DNA of 64,000 nt, from NCBI GenBank assembly GCA_021785515.1, contig JAJYEX010000005.1:125515-189514 (forward strand), written 5' to 3'. The position numbers and the translations under genes are program-made. Below are positions 53,954 to 63,461 of the stretch, piece after piece. Positions within the stretch are counted from its first letter, which is position 1. Each line of letters opens with the position of its first letter. This stretch comes from Pseudomonadota bacterium. GTDB lineage: Bacteria > Pseudomonadota > Gammaproteobacteria > Acidiferrobacterales > UBA6901. The notes under the pieces were generated by a model. That model saw only the letters and a program-made list of their open reading frames with translations. It was not told the origin of the DNA and ran no database searches.

Positions 53954-54337
53954 CTAGGTGTCGGGGTCCGATTCCGGAGCCGCCAGACCACGGATCTTCC
54001 GGCGTGCGCTGTCGACGTTGAGAGCGCACGGGAAGGGCGGGTTGCCGGCAATCTGCTGTGACAGCGCGAAGGCTGCGTACGGGCGGATGTTGGTAGCGAC
54101 CATGGTGATGCCGGATATCATGCATAGCGAATTCATGGTCGTCATCCACTCGTAATACACGTTATCGATGAGCGCCACGCTTTTCAGGTCGTAGATGAGG
54201 AAGCGGGCGCGCTGTTTCTGCAGATACCCCAGCAGCGGCACGAGGTAGGCGTCCGGATCGGTCGGATCCAGGCCCTCACCCGGCTCGAGCAGCACGCTGT
54301 CCTCGCCAATGGGCGTCAGGTGTATTCCGGGGATCAT
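53954..54337 (-). CDS. RsbS-like STAS domain protein
   Basis: The 127-residue protein is a lone STAS domain, as in stressosome core protein RsbS: FLIYDLKSVALIDNVYYEWM, then GITMVATNIRPYAAFALSQQI. In B. subtilis RsbS the MIDSF motif carries phosphorylated Ser59; here the same site reads LIDNV, so Asn59 replaces Ser. The gene is last of four in the same direction. It would form the stressosome core with the RsbR-like protein. AAGGATG precedes the ATG. Confidence 0.82.
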   Translation of the reverse strand: MIPGIHLTPIGEDSVLLEPGEGLDPTDPDAYLVPLLGYLQKQRARFLIYDLKSVALIDNVYYEWMTTMNSLCMISGITMVATNIRPYAAFALSQQIAGNPPFPCALNVDSARRKIRGLAAPESDPDT

Positions 54338-54373
54338 GGGCTGATCATCCTTTCGTCGCCGGACGTCGCGTGT

Positions 54374-55252
54374 CTAGCCCTTGCCCTGGTGCACTTCCAC
54401 TTTGAGGCGACGGAACGCTTCCTTCAGACCCTCGGACAGGGTCGCGCGCGTCGTCACTTTGCCGAGATCGATGTTCAGGCTCGTTAGCGATCGGGCTATT
54501 TCGGGACGTATGCCAGTGAGGACAGCCTCGGCGCCCATGAGTCCGACGGCACGAATCATCTGGATCAGGTGGTGCGATACCTGAGAGTCTATGGCCATGA
54601 CGCCGGTAACGTCGATCACCACGACCCGGGCGCGTTCCGCTTCGATGCGCGACAGCAGGTTTTCCATGACCATCATGGTGCGGGTTGAATCCAGGGTTCC
54701 GATGATCGGCAGGGTGAGTACCCCGTCCCAGATCTCCGTGATAGGCGTCGACGTTTGGCGCAGCTCCTCCTGCTGGGCCTGTATGGTTCGCTCCTTTTCC
54801 TCGAGATAAACGTGAAAGACGTCCAGGATGATGTCGTTGAAAATCGAACCAAGCAGCAGCAGAATCGCCCGCGATTGGGCGAAGTCGACGGTGGCGTCGG
54901 CCTCAAGGTTGTCCAGGAAGACACGCTGCAGGAACTGTATGTAGCGCACGAACTCGTCAAGATTGCTGCCGCGCGCCTGGATCTGCTGGGAAAAGCTGGT
55001 GAAAAACTTGCGCAAAGCGCCAAACTCGGCGCTGCGCCGGTCCAGCTGTGTGCCGGTTTGGAGCAGTATGACCACCAGTTCCAGGAATTCGAGACTGTAG
55101 TCGTTGATCTCTTCCTTGGACAGCAGGTTGGCCTGCCCGAATATTTTGTGGCCCTGCTGCTCGATGATCGCCGAGATCTTTCCCACATTCAGCATGAGCA
55201 GATCGATCAGTATCTGGCTGGTGGTGCGCTGGGTTGGGGCGGGTGTCGTCAT
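54374..55252 (-). CDS. RsbR-like stressosome protein (sensor domain plus STAS)
   Basis: The 292-residue protein has an N-terminal helical sensor domain (about 1-155), a linker EEKERTIQAQQEEL, then a STAS domain with the RsbR signatures LPIIGTLDSTR, VVVIDVTGVMAIDSQVSHHL and LTGIRPEIARSL. B. subtilis RsbRA is phosphorylated at Thr171 and Thr205; here the matching residues are Ser189 and Ser223, so a hydroxyl is kept. GAGGAC lies before the ATG. It is 11 bases after the RsbT-RsbX fusion gene. Confidence 0.9.
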   Translation of the reverse strand: MTTPAPTQRTTSQILIDLLMLNVGKISAIIEQQGHKIFGQANLLSKEEINDYSLEFLELVVILLQTGTQLDRRSAEFGALRKFFTSFSQQIQARGSNLDEFVRYIQFLQRVFLDNLEADATVDFAQSRAILLLLGSIFNDIILDVFHVYLEEKERTIQAQQEELRQTSTPITEIWDGVLTLPIIGTLDSTRTMMVMENLLSRIEAERARVVVIDVTGVMAIDSQVSHHLIQMIRAVGLMGAEAVLTGIRPEIARSLTSLNIDLGKVTTRATLSEGLKEAFRRLKVEVHQGKG

Positions 55253-55263
55253 GGGAAATGTCC

Positions 55264-56322
55264 TCAGTTTGCCGCGGTTCGGATCACGAACAGGGAGCGG
55301 TCATCGTTGCCGCGGCTGGTGACCTGCGCAAGAAGGAAAGCGATCAGCTGCGGGTGCAGCCGCCATAGACCAGGAAAAGACCGGAGCGTCCAGTTGCGGC
55401 GCAGGCCGTCGGAGCATGTAAAAAACAGGGCCTGCGGGGGAAACGACAGGCTTTCGGCGCGCAGGCTGCGATGATCGTGTCCCAGGATACCGGGAGAGAA
55501 GGTGATGCTCCGCCGCTCGCCGTTGCAGATCAGGTAGGCGCTCATGTCGCCGACGCCGACAAAGCTAAGGGTGTTGCTGGCGTGTTCGATCTCGCACAGC
55601 AGCCCCACAGCTCCGCGTCCGCCGGCGGTCATCCGGCGGTCGATGTTCTGCATCAGCGTCTCAAGTGGAGCATCGATGTGCAGAACCTGATCCACGCCCC
55701 GGACCGCCTCGGCAGCCTCCCGCCCGTGTCCCAGGCCGTCGACGTGCAGCCAGCGGGTCCGCGTGCCGTTCAGGTTTACGGCCAAGGCGTCGCCGTTGAA
55801 CAGACTGTCCTGGTGAGCGCGCAGGCACAGGCCGTAGCTTGCGGGCGTGGATCTGACCGGATGGGATTCAGCGTCATAAAAACGCGCCCAGACGGCGGCG
55901 CCGTGCCAGGGCAGCTGGTCGGTGCCGGTGTCGGGCACCGAGTACATTTCGCTTTCATGCGCCAGACGCCGAATGGCACCCAGCCCTTTTCCGAGCGTAT
56001 TTGCCGTGGTGTACCCGTCGCGCTGCGCCCGGTCGAGGTCGGGAATGCCGGGGCCGTAATCTATGGCGAATATGTCGAGTGCCGGCCGCGGCAGGCGCGA
56101 TTCCCACACCTGTACCAGGCCGCTGCCCAGGGCGAATTTGATCTGATTGGTGACCATTTCGTTGCACACCAGTTCCATGCGTTCGCGCGTGAGCTGGGAA
56201 AATCCCATGCGACGGGACACAGCGCGCAGCTTCGAACGAAGCAGCACCTGCCCGCTTTCGTGCTGGACGTTCTGTTCGACCAGCAGGCGCAGTGGCCCGT
56301 TGTCCGGCGGCGTGTGGCTCAT
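55264..56322 (-). CDS. RsbT-like kinase fused to RsbX-like PP2C phosphatase
   Basis: The 352-residue protein joins a small GHKL ATPase (about 10-150: LVCNEMVTNQIKFA, IDYGPGIPD, GKGLGAIRRL) to a SpoIIE/PP2C phosphatase (about 155-350: LHVDGLGHGREA, FVGVGDMSAYL, FTCSDGL, NDDRSLFVI). In B. subtilis RsbT phosphorylates RsbR and RsbS and RsbX removes the phosphate; here both are in one chain. The ATG at 56322 overlaps the stop of the upstream GGDEF gene by four bases (ATGA). Confidence 0.88.
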   Translation of the reverse strand: MSHTPPDNGPLRLLVEQNVQHESGQVLLRSKLRAVSRRMGFSQLTRERMELVCNEMVTNQIKFALGSGLVQVWESRLPRPALDIFAIDYGPGIPDLDRAQRDGYTTANTLGKGLGAIRRLAHESEMYSVPDTGTDQLPWHGAAVWARFYDAESHPVRSTPASYGLCLRAHQDSLFNGDALAVNLNGTRTRWLHVDGLGHGREAAEAVRGVDQVLHIDAPLETLMQNIDRRMTAGGRGAVGLLCEIEHASNTLSFVGVGDMSAYLICNGERRSITFSPGILGHDHRSLRAESLSFPPQALFFTCSDGLRRNWTLRSFPGLWRLHPQLIAFLLAQVTSRGNDDRSLFVIRTAAN

Positions 56323-57341
56323 GCGCGTTCCAGCGCCACTTCCGGTTTTATGGAATCCGAGTCCACCCACCGACCGCGTCCGAGGCGCTTTGCTTCGTAG
56401 AGCGCGGCATCGGCGCGTGTCACCAGGGTCGTGGGGCTGTCCTGCGACTGCAGGGTGGCGATCCCGATGCTGGTCCGCCCCTCCATCCCGTCAAGAATCT
56501 GTTGGGCTACACGGTGCGCGATGGCCATCTCGGCGAACAGCACGATGACAAATTCGTCTCCGCCCATGCGGCAGGGAAAATCGACATCCCCGCGCACTGC
56601 TGCCCGCATAACGGCGGCCATGCGCCTGAGGTGCTCGTCGCCGAACTGGTGGCCGTGGGTATCATTGATCTCCTTGAACTTGTCGAGATCAAGCACGATC
56701 AGGCACAACGGCTCGCGCTGTCGCAGACAGCGCGCTACGGCGTCGCGCAGGCGTGTGTCGTAGGCGCCGCGGTTCAGCAGGCCGGTGAGGCTGTCCGTCT
56801 CGGCCAGGCGAATGGATTCCTGCAGCTCGGTCTTCTTGCGGTTGAGCGCGGTTTCGAGTTCGGCAAGTTCCGCCGCCGCCCGCGCCTTGGCACGATCAAG
56901 CTCGGCGCTGATCTCGTGATTGCGGCGCCGCAACAGCTCGGGATCGGTGGTTTCCCCGGCGAGCTGGAAGCGCTCACCCAGCGCGCTGAGCTGCGTTGGC
57001 AGCAGCTTCCCGGGAAGTGTGTCTAGCAGTTCGCGGTGCCCGTTCCAGACGAGAAGCAGCCGCTCTTCCTCAATGTCGATCTCGGCGCGCACCGGTTCGA
57101 CCGCCGCCGCGGCTGCGTGCCGGAGCCGCGCGAGAATCGCATCCAGCCGGACAGCCGCGGCAAAGACGTTACCGCCGGCAGCCTGTACGGCGTCGATGGC
57201 AAACTGGGCGAAGCGCCGTCGGTCCGGTTCGACCATGAGCGTCATCGCCAGCACGCGATTTGCCGTGCCGCGCGCTGCTTCTAGGGACGCTGTCGTCGCG
57301 GCCGCTCGCGGGTGTGGTTCGGTGCAGGGGTTCGCAGACAT
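56319..57341 (-). CDS. diguanylate cyclase (GGDEF)
   Basis: The 340-residue protein has an N-terminal helical region (about 20-170, with a coiled coil ELDRAKARAAAELAEL) and a GGDEF domain with TDSLTGLLNRGAYD, LDKFKEINDTHGHQFGD and an intact MGGDEFVIV. The inhibitory RxxD site is not evident (Gly sits in the Arg position). It should make cyclic di-GMP. It is first in the stressosome-type operon and has no membrane segment. ATG at 57341 is preferred to a TTG eight codons earlier. Confidence 0.9.
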   Translation of the reverse strand: MSANPCTEPHPRAAATTASLEAARGTANRVLAMTLMVEPDRRRFAQFAIDAVQAAGGNVFAAAVRLDAILARLRHAAAAAVEPVRAEIDIEEERLLLVWNGHRELLDTLPGKLLPTQLSALGERFQLAGETTDPELLRRRNHEISAELDRAKARAAAELAELETALNRKKTELQESIRLAETDSLTGLLNRGAYDTRLRDAVARCLRQREPLCLIVLDLDKFKEINDTHGHQFGDEHLRRMAAVMRAAVRGDVDFPCRMGGDEFVIVLFAEMAIAHRVAQQILDGMEGRTSIGIATLQSQDSPTTLVTRADAALYEAKRLGRGRWVDSDSIKPEVALERA

Positions 57342-57569
57342 GGGAAAGTGTGGTTTTGGCGACAAATGGTCCTGGAAATGGTTATAGGCGGCGTTGCGCT
57401 GTCTTTGAAGATAGCCGATTGCAATTAATATGCCATACTCTGCTGTAATGCCGTTTCAGCGCACCTGGTTATGGCACGGTTTGTGCTCGTTTTGGGGCTA
57501 TAGATATTGATGGGTCCGGCTCTGTTTGGGCCGGGTTCGACGGCAAGCACAATCAGTCTGGAAGGCACT

Positions 57570-58736
57570 ATGCAGCTGGACACTGGAGTTAGAGAAGAGG
57601 CGAAGACCCGGATTTTGGTTGTGGACGACTCACGCCTCATGCGCGTGGCAGTGCAGCGCGTGCTAGGGCCCGAATACGACCTGGTCGAGTCCGAGGATGG
57701 AGAGGCGGGCTGGGAACAGCTGCGGGGCGATGACGCCATCCAGGTCGTCATCAGCGACGTACAGATGCCGCGACTCGACGGCTATTCCCTGATCTGCCGT
57801 ATCCGGGCGGCCGACGAGACGCGCATCAGCGAGGTGCCGGTGGTGGTCATCACAGGCGCCGAAGACGAGATCACGCGCGAACGCGCCTACGCCTGCGGCG
57901 CCAACGAATTCATCACCAAGCCCATCGATTCAGCACAGCTGCTGGCCTGCGTGCGCGGGCTTATCCGGGGCGACTCGACGGACATCGACGCGATCCAGAC
58001 AGCCGCGGCGCTCGGAGATCAGTCCGACATCGACAGCCTGACCCGTCTTGATAACCGCCGCTGCTTTCTCGAACGCGGCCGGGAGTTGCTGTCCTCGGCG
58101 CGCAGTGCCGGCAGCCAGATTTCGCTGCTGCGCCTGAGCATCGACGACTTCATATCGCTGCGTGCCCAGCACGGAGATGACTACGCGGATCATGTGCTGA
58201 TATGGGTTGCCGATCTGCTGCGCAGCAGGACCCGCAAGGGCGACGTGATCTCGCGCACGGGAAACTCGGAATTCTCGGTCATGACTCAGTCGTTCGGGCG
58301 CCTGGAGGCGGCAATGCTCTGCGAACGTCTGCGCGCGGCAGTGTCTGCGGCACCGTTCAGCCATGACAGAGTGGCGGCGACGGTGACTGTCAGCCTGGGT
58401 CTCGTGGCGTCGGGACACGATCCGGGGGATTCCCTGGAGGATCTGTACGGTCTTGCCTACCGGCGCATGAAGGTTGCCGCTGGCGGGGGTGGCGACCGCA
58501 GCTGCGTCGGGGAAGAGGCCGACCCGGGTTGCATCGAGGAAGCGGTGATGCAGGAGCCTGGGCTGGACCAGGCGCTGGAACTGGTTGCCCGCAGCGAATT
58601 CGGACAGCTGGAGCCCTATGCGCTGCAGCTCGCACTGCGCGTGTTCCCGCTGCTCGAGTACTGCAACACCAAGTTTTCACTGGGCGTCGGACAGGAACTC
58701 AAGACGATCCGCGACAGTCTTGCGCACATGGATTAA
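57570..58736 (+). CDS. response regulator with degenerate GGDEF domain
   Basis: The 388-residue protein starts with a REC domain (about 14-130: ILVVDDSRLM, phosphoacceptor Asp63 in VVISDVQMP, conserved Lys in FITKPID). A GGDEF-like domain follows (SLTRLDNRRCFLERG), but the active site reads TGNSEF instead of GGDEF, so cyclase activity is unlikely. A 65-residue helical tail ends the protein. GGAAGG lies before the ATG at 57570. It is divergent from the stressosome operon and may share its control region. Confidence 0.88.
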   Translation: MQLDTGVREEAKTRILVVDDSRLMRVAVQRVLGPEYDLVESEDGEAGWEQLRGDDAIQVVISDVQMPRLDGYSLICRIRAADETRISEVPVVVITGAEDEITRERAYACGANEFITKPIDSAQLLACVRGLIRGDSTDIDAIQTAAALGDQSDIDSLTRLDNRRCFLERGRELLSSARSAGSQISLLRLSIDDFISLRAQHGDDYADHVLIWVADLLRSRTRKGDVISRTGNSEFSVMTQSFGRLEAAMLCERLRAAVSAAPFSHDRVAATVTVSLGLVASGHDPGDSLEDLYGLAYRRMKVAAGGGGDRSCVGEEADPGCIEEAVMQEPGLDQALELVARSEFGQLEPYALQLALRVFPLLEYCNTKFSLGVGQELKTIRDSLAHMD

Positions 58737-60940: not shown

Positions 60941-61378
60941 TCAGTCCTCTATATCGTAGAGAAAGTCCGTGAGGTCGGTGTAGGTTGCGTCGTTGTAGTC
61001 GCCGAACTGCAGGGCAACACCCCGCCAGTCCTGGCGGATGACCGTAGCCGGGATGACATGTTCTATCGGCCGCCCGCGGTGCGTAAAGCGGAGTCGGAAA
61101 TCGATCCTGCTGCCGATCTCGAGGTTGGTGCGGTCCATTCCGATGAGCGCTCCCCCCAGGCCTAGGTTGATGACGTGCCATGGCACGGAATGGCTTAGGC
61201 CGCTGTTGACGAGGGTTTCGAACTGTATCTGCTTTCGCAGGCTCGTGCGGTAACGGCGTGGGTGGGAATTGGCAGCGCCAAGCCGGACTGGGGCGGGCAC
61301 CAGCGGATGCACCGTTGCCGGCTGCGGCCGGATAGCGGCGGGCCGGCGGTGCTCCTGGGTCTTAAGTGACTGTCGCAT
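60941..61378 (-). CDS. PilZ domain protein
   Basis: The 145-residue protein has an N-terminal Arg/Pro-rich extension (about 45 residues) and a PilZ domain with PRRYRTSLRKQ, VINLGLGGALIGM, RIDFRLRFTHRGR and VALQFGDYND. The Asp of the DxSxxG motif is replaced by Asn-Leu-Gly-Leu-Gly, so ligand binding should be checked. The ATG at 61378 has AAGGAA upstream; a longer start is unlikely. Confidence 0.78.
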   Translation of the reverse strand: MRQSLKTQEHRRPAAIRPQPATVHPLVPAPVRLGAANSHPRRYRTSLRKQIQFETLVNSGLSHSVPWHVINLGLGGALIGMDRTNLEIGSRIDFRLRFTHRGRPIEHVIPATVIRQDWRGVALQFGDYNDATYTDLTDFLYDIED

Positions 61379-61595
61379 AGCGTGAATTCCTTCTGGGGCT
61401 TCTCTGCAGCTAGTTATACAATTGATTGTCGGGTGCGTTAAGCCTAGGACCATGCCATTCGGCGCGAAATTCATACGGTTCGTCCATTCTGGACAGGTGT
61501 TGCCCGGAACGGCCGCGGTCAGTGCGGACGCATCGTTGTGGCCGCCGCAGGGCCTTTAGCCCCGGGGCGATGTGATTCGGCCCGCTAATGCGCTG

Positions 61596-63461
61596 CTACG
61601 CGGGTTCTCCGATGGGTGCTATCCACGCTACCGGGTGATCGCGCAGGATCGCCTCGAGGGCGGAAGCGCTTAAGGGGTGGTACAAGAGGTAGCCCTGCAC
61701 CAGATCGCAGTTTTCCTGCCGCAGGTGACTGAGTTGCGCCTCGGTCTCAACCCCTTCAGCGATCACCGTGAGCTTCAGGCTGTGTGCCAGTCCGATAATG
61801 GCGCGGGTGATGGCGGCGTCGTGTTCGTCGCTGGTGAGGTTGCGGATGAACGACTGATCGATCTTGAGATGGTCGATCGGAAAGCGGCGCAGGTAGCTCA
61901 GGGAGGAAAAGCCGGTCCCGAAGTCGTCGATCGAAAGCCGCACGCCGATGTCCTTCAGCTGTTTCAGGATGGCGCGGGTGTGTTCGGCGTCCTGCATGGC
62001 CGCGCCCTCGGTAATCTCCAGCTCCAGCAGCGGCGGATCGATCCCGGCCTCTGCCAGCACACGCTTCACCAGGCCGGGAAGATCCTGTTGATGGAACTGG
62101 CGCGCCGATATGTTGACCGCCATCGGCAGCTTTGCCAAACCGGCGTTGCTCCAGGTCTTGCACTGGGTGCACGCGGCCCGCAGCGTCCACTCGCCAATGT
62201 CGACCACCAGCCCGGTTTCCTCGGCGAGCGGGATGAATTCCGAGGGCATGATCACGCCGCGTTCCGGATGCTTCCAGCGCAGCAGTACCTCGGCACCGAT
62301 GACGCGTCCGGTGCGGGTCTCTACCTCCGGCTGGAAATTGAGGCATAGCTCATTGTGTTCGATGGCATGGCGCAGGTAGTTCTGGAGCGAGAGGGATTCG
62401 ACGGCGCGTGCGTTCATGTCTTGCGAGTAGGCCTGGAAGTGATTTCCACCGCGCTGCTTGGCGCGGTGCATGGCGGTGTCTGCATTGCGCAGCAGCACAA
62501 GACTGTCACTGCCGTCCCGCGGATAGATGCTGACCCCGACGCTGAACGTGAGAAAGTATTCGCGGGTGTTCACATACAGCGGTTGCTGTATGCCGGAGAC
62601 CATCCGCCTGGCGAGCTCCAGCGGGGCGTGGCGGTCGGTGAATCCGGACACCAACAGCGCGAATACGTCGGCTTCAAACCGGTAGAGCATCGCCTCGGTG
62701 CCGGTGGCGCGCTCCTCGGTCAGCAGATGTTCCAGACGGGCCGTGACGGCCTGCAGGAGCCCGTCACCCACGCCATGGCCCAGGCTGCGGGTGATGACAT
62801 TGAACCGGTCCAGATCCATCAGTATCACTGCCAGGCGCTGCCTGCGGCCGGGGCCTGCTGCCAGGGCCTGTTCGATGTGTTCCTGAAACCGCCTGCGGTT
62901 GGGCAGTCCCGTGAGCGTGTCGTGGTGCGCCTGATGCGACAGCCGGGCTTCCACCCGGCTGTGGCGGGTGATGTCCGCAATGTAGGCGTGGAATTCTCCC
63001 AGATCCGGTAGGTAGTGGACGCTGCAGGCGAGCACGTGTTTGTCCTTCGGGTATTCCCACACCTGGCGGCCTTCCGGCAGCGCCCGCAACGCTGACAGGC
63101 GCTTTCCCAGATCCGACGGCAGTAGGGCTGCCGGCTCATCGACCGCTGTGCCCAGGTCCCGAAGCATGTCGCCGGCGCCCGCGTTCGCGTAGAGCACCCT
63201 GCCGTCAGCGGACAGCGCCAGCACCGGGTTGGGATTGCGTTCCGCAAACAGCAGTAGCCGCCGGCGCTGGGTTGCAGTCGCCAGAAGCGGAAGCATTCGC
63301 AGGCCAAACACCGCCATGACAGCAATGACCGCCGCGCACAGCGCAATGATGACAACGGGCGCCACGTGCATTGCCGACAGTATGGCCACCACGGCCCACA
63401 TTGCCACCAGCGCAACATAGGCGGTGATGATCTTGATCCTCGGTCCGACCATCCTGTTCAT
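61596..63461 (-). CDS. membrane GGDEF-EAL protein with degenerate GGDEF
   Basis: The 621-residue protein has two N-terminal membrane helices (about 9-60), a PAS-like region (about 65-165), a GGDEF domain and an EAL domain. The GGDEF motif reads FEADVF, so cyclase activity is lost. The EAL domain begins GAEVLLRWKHP, EVL being a permitted variant, and keeps NISARQFHQQD, ELEITEGA, IDDFGTGFSSLSYL, KIDQSFI and AEGVETEAQ. It probably degrades cyclic di-GMP. Start ATG at 63461 opens the membrane segment. Confidence 0.93.
   Translation of the reverse strand: MNRMVGPRIKIITAYVALVAMWAVVAILSAMHVAPVVIIALCAAVIAVMAVFGLRMLPLLATATQRRRLLLFAERNPNPVLALSADGRVLYANAGAGDMLRDLGTAVDEPAALLPSDLGKRLSALRALPEGRQVWEYPKDKHVLACSVHYLPDLGEFHAYIADITRHSRVEARLSHQAHHDTLTGLPNRRRFQEHIEQALAAGPGRRQRLAVILMDLDRFNVITRSLGHGVGDGLLQAVTARLEHLLTEERATGTEAMLYRFEADVFALLVSGFTDRHAPLELARRMVSGIQQPLYVNTREYFLTFSVGVSIYPRDGSDSLVLLRNADTAMHRAKQRGGNHFQAYSQDMNARAVESLSLQNYLRHAIEHNELCLNFQPEVETRTGRVIGAEVLLRWKHPERGVIMPSEFIPLAEETGLVVDIGEWTLRAACTQCKTWSNAGLAKLPMAVNISARQFHQQDLPGLVKRVLAEAGIDPPLLELEITEGAAMQDAEHTRAILKQLKDIGVRLSIDDFGTGFSSLSYLRRFPIDHLKIDQSFIRNLTSDEHDAAITRAIIGLAHSLKLTVIAEGVETEAQLSHLRQENCDLVQGYLLYHPLSASALEAILRDHPVAWIAPIGEPA

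Follow-up and report, generated by a model that had tools for sequence, protein, structure and literature searches.

The sequence analysed here (the window) is a stretch of 64,000 nucleotides from a Pseudomonadota bacterium, and the system in question is a four-gene operon at positions 53954-57341 that encodes stressosome-type proteins together with a diguanylate cyclase. All four genes lie on the minus strand, in the order GGDEF cyclase, HATPase-SpoIIE fusion, RsbR-like protein and RsbS-like protein. Gene 1 (56319-57341, minus strand) encodes the cyclase, of 340 amino acids (PF00990, 3.6e-33). Gene 2 (55264-56322, minus strand; 352 amino acids) encodes a kinase-phosphatase fusion recognised by its Pfam domains, and its ATG start codon overlaps the stop codon of gene 1 as ATGA at 56319-56322. 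Gene 3 (54374-55252, minus strand; 292 amino acids) encodes an RsbR-like protein with a helical N-terminal domain and a STAS domain (1e-14), and gene 4 (53954-54337, minus strand; 127 amino acids) encodes an RsbS-like protein with a single STAS domain. A first-pass annotation, made from the DNA letters, had described four co-directional genes of these types, the first two overlapping by ATGA, and the domain calls obtained here agree with it; its description of the components as stressosome-type is borne out by matches of RsbR, RsbS and RsbX type to solved structures. As it had also observed, no RsbU-like or sigma factor gene was recognised among the neighbouring open reading frames (ORFs) that were read, and the cyclase is the sole candidate output within the operon, in keeping with the cyclic di-GMP (c-di-GMP) output proposed there. 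A scan for promoters and terminators gave nothing informative.

The fusion protein was used as the only bait in a search of 84,980 species genomes, which yielded 83 confirmed relatives. The best 80 loci were kept and their gene families were called with hidden Markov models of the four families. All four genes were present in the order cyclase, fusion, RsbR and RsbS (G-TX-R-S) at 70 of these loci, and the other ten, at which at least one gene was not called, are sited at contig ends or are fragments, indicating that the four-gene set is not a product of chance. In 63 of 76 loci the cyclase gene either runs into the fusion gene or ends no more than 10 bases from it (median overlap, 4 bases), and the gap between the RsbR and RsbS genes is at most 59 bases in 74 of 74. 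The module was found in about 90 bacterial species, many of them from sulfur- and iron-oxidising groups; carriers include Thioalkalivibrio, Thiobacillus, Sulfuricaulis, Acidiferrobacteraceae, Gallionella, Sideroxydans, Sulfuricella and Hydrogenophilus. A draw of 369 genomes from the class of the window gave 17 fusion matches, which comprised 13 full modules, one module cut by a contig end, an R-S-T-TX operon (G017), the window itself and genome G012, whose module was already among those found earlier. A draw of 399 genomes from the phylum added one further module (G622, locus L199). Some genomes of the window's order also carry a canonical R-S-T-X operon.

The fusion protein contains a SpoIIE domain (3.1e-07) and an HATPase_c_2 domain (1.7e-05) whose 25.2 bits are just under the Pfam cut-off of 27.4. 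The kinase half, which is RsbT-like, spans amino acids 8-150 (55873-56301, minus strand), and its residues E55, N59, D88, G90 and G92 are present in every family member with sequence at those positions. The RsbX-like phosphatase half spans amino acids 160-350 (55273-55845, minus strand); the best matches of its profile are the RsbX-type structures 3zt9 (6.3e-18) and 3w40 (1.2e-09), and the Asp residues of the PP2C motifs (D178, D195, D305 and D341) are conserved. The gene had at first been annotated as an RsbT-RsbX fusion. The RsbX-type phosphatase half of that assignment was upheld within an HATPase-SpoIIE fusion, but not the identity of the kinase half, which in a quick tree of kinase domains (136 columns, many forks unresolved) joins the TX fusions of R-S-T-TX operons, away from separate RsbT proteins (Shimodaira-Hasegawa-like approximate likelihood ratio test, SH-aLRT, 96). 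A simple RsbT-RsbX fusion was rejected on the basis of this grouping. No stand-alone RsbT was found by a profile search of the organism's own genome (99.9% complete), in which the HATPase_c_2 matches outside the module all lie in frames of at least 347 amino acids. Three of these matches were checked: two are of the histidine kinase type and one is a helix-turn-helix (HTH)-HATPase protein of 347 amino acids (L241, 1207-2250; G000:C22), the architecture of which is not RsbT-like.

The RsbR-like protein matched solved RsbR at 2.2e-31, and it is the only RsbR in its own genome. The Pfam domain RsbRD_N is weak in the window protein, yet it was found in 12 of 13 RsbR family members (best, 3e-05). 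This family is the most conserved of the four, with a mean column identity of 76%. The equivalent of Bacillus subtilis RsbRA T171 is Ser189 (codon at 54686-54688, minus strand), which is Ser in all 76 members, and the equivalent of T205 is Ser223 (codon at 54584-54586, minus strand), which is Ser in 73 and Thr in 3 of the 76. Judged by its sequence, the protein is an RsbR of the stressosome type, with a predicted N-terminal sensor domain, a STAS domain and both phospho-sites kept.

The RsbS-like protein by itself had no Pfam match, and the profile of its family ranks RsbS (6qcm) first among solved structures (5.6e-05); an hhalign comparison with the STAS domain of the module RsbR gave 93% over 114 columns. 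At the position of the RsbS phospho-serine, the family alignment places Asn59 in the window (codon at 54161-54163, minus strand). Among 75 members, site 59 was occupied by Pro (32), Gln (12), Arg (6), Glu (6), Asn (5), Thr (4), Gly (3), Ser (3), Ala (2), Lys (1) and Asp (1). The canonical RsbS of R-S-T operons, selected with a profile built from four RsbS that have the serine (score above 60 bits) and so leaving out weaker RsbS, have Ser at this site throughout 31 distinct loci, apart from one Thr. A Fisher test against a canonical count of 28/28 gave 5e-19, a value that is indicative only because the sequences are related and the 28/28 is an under-count, so the conclusion rests on the counts: the classical phospho-site Ser59, as read from the alignment, is mostly lost in the module family.

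In the cyclase, the catalytic GGDEF and DxD residues are invariant across 77 of 77 module members, from which synthesis of c-di-GMP is predicted. The inhibitory site has a shifted motif, RxxxD (R250-D254; 56580-56594, minus strand), in place of RxxD. This shifted form was found in 75 of the 77 module cyclases, three of which also have RxxD, and RxxD was found in 15 of 16 comparison GGDEF domains with a readable motif. The shift hints that inhibition of the module cyclases by their product may be weak or lacking. AlphaFold2 models (mean pLDDT, the predicted local distance difference test, about 84-85) predicted an N-terminal domain at amino acids 26-130 (56952-57266, minus strand) with the topology b-a-a-b-b-b-a. 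Between it and the GGDEF domain the model places a long stalk helix, likely a coiled coil, at amino acids 134-181 (56799-56942, minus strand).

The N-terminal domain of the window cyclase had no Pfam match, and a Pfam scan of 68 module N-terminal domains gave scattered matches, with at most four members per family among 25 of 82 families listed. Its predicted fold had no match in the PDB at E<=0.001, and hhalign comparisons with the T, R and S domains of the module gave nothing. Searched alone, the domain turned up as a single copy in each of 15 genomes among the 340 of the class, every one with a fusion match, and it was not found in the remaining 325. This restriction to genomes with the fusion independently supports the cyclase as a component of the module, and the N-terminal domain constitutes a separate family limited to the module.

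An origin for this domain could be sought in R-S-T-TX operons, where the protein encoded after the TX fusion carries an N-terminal HATPase_c_2-like domain: the cyclase domain would descend from it and would take the docking position of RsbT on the STAS core. Its profile does match one such protein (L216; 1.2e-05 among 7168 ORFs, collinear), but the profile-profile score was no better than that of shuffled columns (109 of 200 were as high), proteins from other genomes that are homologous to the L216 kinase had no match to the domain, and no HATPase appeared among the 50 Foldseek matches listed. Such a descent is thus highly improbable.

The stalk recalls another system. In Pseudomonas aeruginosa, the SiaABCD system (PMC8457831) governs a stalked cyclase through a partner protein that is reversibly phosphorylated on Ser/Thr, as would be the case in the module. 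By analogy, the unphosphorylated RsbR or RsbS-like protein would bind and activate the cyclase stalk, with the fusion serving as both kinase and phosphatase. The same parts are present (a kinase, a phosphatase, a phosphorylatable partner and a cyclase with a small N-terminal domain and a long stalk), the mechanism has been demonstrated for SiaC and SiaD (PMC8457831), and SiaD was the second match in a PDB fold search with the whole cyclase model. However, the GGDEF part dominated the matches of that search, the SiaD match reflects mostly a common stalk-GGDEF arrangement, and the window cyclase scored 114.7 bits against the SiaD equivalog model, the cut-off of which is 290. The protein families of SiaABCD differ from those of the module, whose STAS proteins are stressosome-type. 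We consider a mechanism this close to SiaABCD unlikely.

The first-pass annotation had suggested that stress sensed by the RsbR-RsbS complex releases an RsbT part to control the cyclase. As outlined in the accounts that cite Quin et al. 2012 (PMC12143880, PMC4976288), the RsbR-S-T proteins of Moorella thermoacetica control the GGDEF cyclase MtG, by way of RsbT and of an RsbU-N domain that MtG carries, so that a stressosome governing c-di-GMP is already known from that organism. This is a precedent for a mechanism in which stress would cause the RsbT-like half of the fusion to detach from the RsbR-RsbS core and to bind directly to the N-terminal domain of the cyclase, and the overlap of the cyclase and fusion genes fits a close pair. 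The module resembles the Moorella system, as described there, in that stressosome-type proteins would control a GGDEF cyclase, but it differs from it in having no RsbT orthologue, in the loss of Ser59, in the N-terminal domain of the cyclase and in placing the cyclase gene first. The kinase half is of the TX type in the tree and is tethered to a phosphatase; no free RsbT was detected; and Ser59, the phosphorylation of which has been linked to RsbT release (PMC3944199), is Asn in the window. No RsbU-N match was found in the window cyclase, the N-terminal domain of which is predicted to be mixed alpha/beta instead of a helical bundle and had no Pfam match of note. The release model is weakened by these results, and it is doubtful that it describes the module.

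Since the catalytic motifs are intact, the RsbR sites are kept, the RsbS site is lost and the linkage is exclusive, the module is best read as a putative stressosome-derived c-di-GMP switch acting via phosphorylation of RsbR by a tethered kinase-phosphatase, a reading to which we give about an even chance. RsbR, with its sensor and STAS domains, would form a core with the RsbS-like STAS protein, a putative scaffold in which phosphorylation at the classical site has mostly been lost. The fusion protein would dock on this core via its HATPase half and set the phosphorylation of RsbR at Ser189 and Ser223, an activity that the conserved motifs and sites would permit. The state of the core would then decide whether the N-terminal domain and stalk of the cyclase are engaged by a partner, which may be the core or the fusion protein, and this engagement would lead to dimerisation of the GGDEF domains and higher c-di-GMP. 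No freely released RsbT would take part. SiaABCD-like activation would be a more specific form of this switch. Besides the Moorella system, precedents are found in SiaC-SiaD, where the unphosphorylated partner regulates the cyclase via its stalk (PMC8457831), and in B. subtilis stressosomes with RsbS S59A, which still signal (PMC3944199).

Several points weigh against such a switch. Seven of the 75 RsbS-like proteins (six from Thiobacillus and one from Gallionellaceae) retain Ser or Thr at site 59. The kinase-domain tree rests on few columns, and many of its forks lack resolution. The HATPase half falls just below the Pfam cut-off and its kinase activity is assumed from motifs, and the search for RsbT in the genome relied on profile matches, by which a very divergent copy could be missed.

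The literature searched, which included a minority of subscription papers, yielded no account of this arrangement, in line with the earlier suggestion that the exact arrangement may be undescribed. That annotation had also mentioned stressosome-GGDEF links in some proteobacteria, and Gram-negative RSTX modules with c-di-GMP genes have indeed been reported in Vibrio, Chromobacterium and Herbaspirillum (PMC9237108). Like the module, these contain RsbR, RsbS, a kinase, an RsbX-type phosphatase and a c-di-GMP gene. In them the order is R-S-T-X, T and X are separate and the output lies downstream, whereas in the module the output gene comes first, the kinase is fused to the phosphatase and the RsbS-like protein is without the serine. 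Of interest here is a conserved natural relative of the stressosome without the RsbS phospho-switch and with a module-specific cyclase domain. Gaidenko and Price (PMC3944199) showed that signalling by the stressosomes of B. subtilis persists in part when RsbS is not phosphorylated, and suggested that phosphorylation of Ser59 may have been added in evolution to an older mechanism. The module is a natural conserved case, with the serine mostly gone, RsbT missing and the RsbR sites kept, which makes signalling without RsbS phosphorylation directly testable with only four genes and with c-di-GMP as a simple readout. For lineages of sulfur and iron oxidation (Thiobacillus, Thioalkalivibrio, Gallionella, Sideroxydans, Sulfuricella) it provides a defined four-gene c-di-GMP circuit. 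A broader proposal, that the module represents a conserved stressosome class without RsbT and RsbS phosphorylation, in which a tethered kinase-phosphatase phosphorylates RsbR to pass on the signal and an adaptor domain specific to the module, with a new fold, provides the link to the cyclase, is put forward tentatively, as we think it somewhat more apt to fail than to hold.

The nearest relative of gene 2 is the TX fusion of the R-S-T-TX-output operons (L051, L200-L217), which, unlike the module, retain a separate RsbT and a canonical RsbS. In operons L051, L200, L202-L205, L207, L209, L214 and L216, the protein after TX often has an N-terminal RsbT-like HATPase_c_2 domain, and where scanned (L051) it is a histidine kinase. 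Since these HATPase_c_2 domains form one tree group (SH-aLRT 92), an RsbT-like docking domain may be built into the R-S-T-TX outputs themselves. Four other loci (L173, L174, L176 and L222) have two successive HATPase genes before RsbX (R-S-T-T2-X), an arrangement that may correspond to the TX fusion in split form.

Divergent from the module, at 57561-58736 (plus strand), lies a gene for a response regulator receiver and GGDEF protein that is probably inactive as a cyclase, since its signature reads GNSEF. An opposite-strand GGDEF ORF upstream of the module is also present in the nearest relatives (L057, L058 and L073). Genes for a PilZ protein and a GGDEF-EAL protein were found at 60941-63461 (minus strand), within ~6 kb of the module, and together with the divergent receiver-GGDEF gene they make up a small c-di-GMP cluster beside it.

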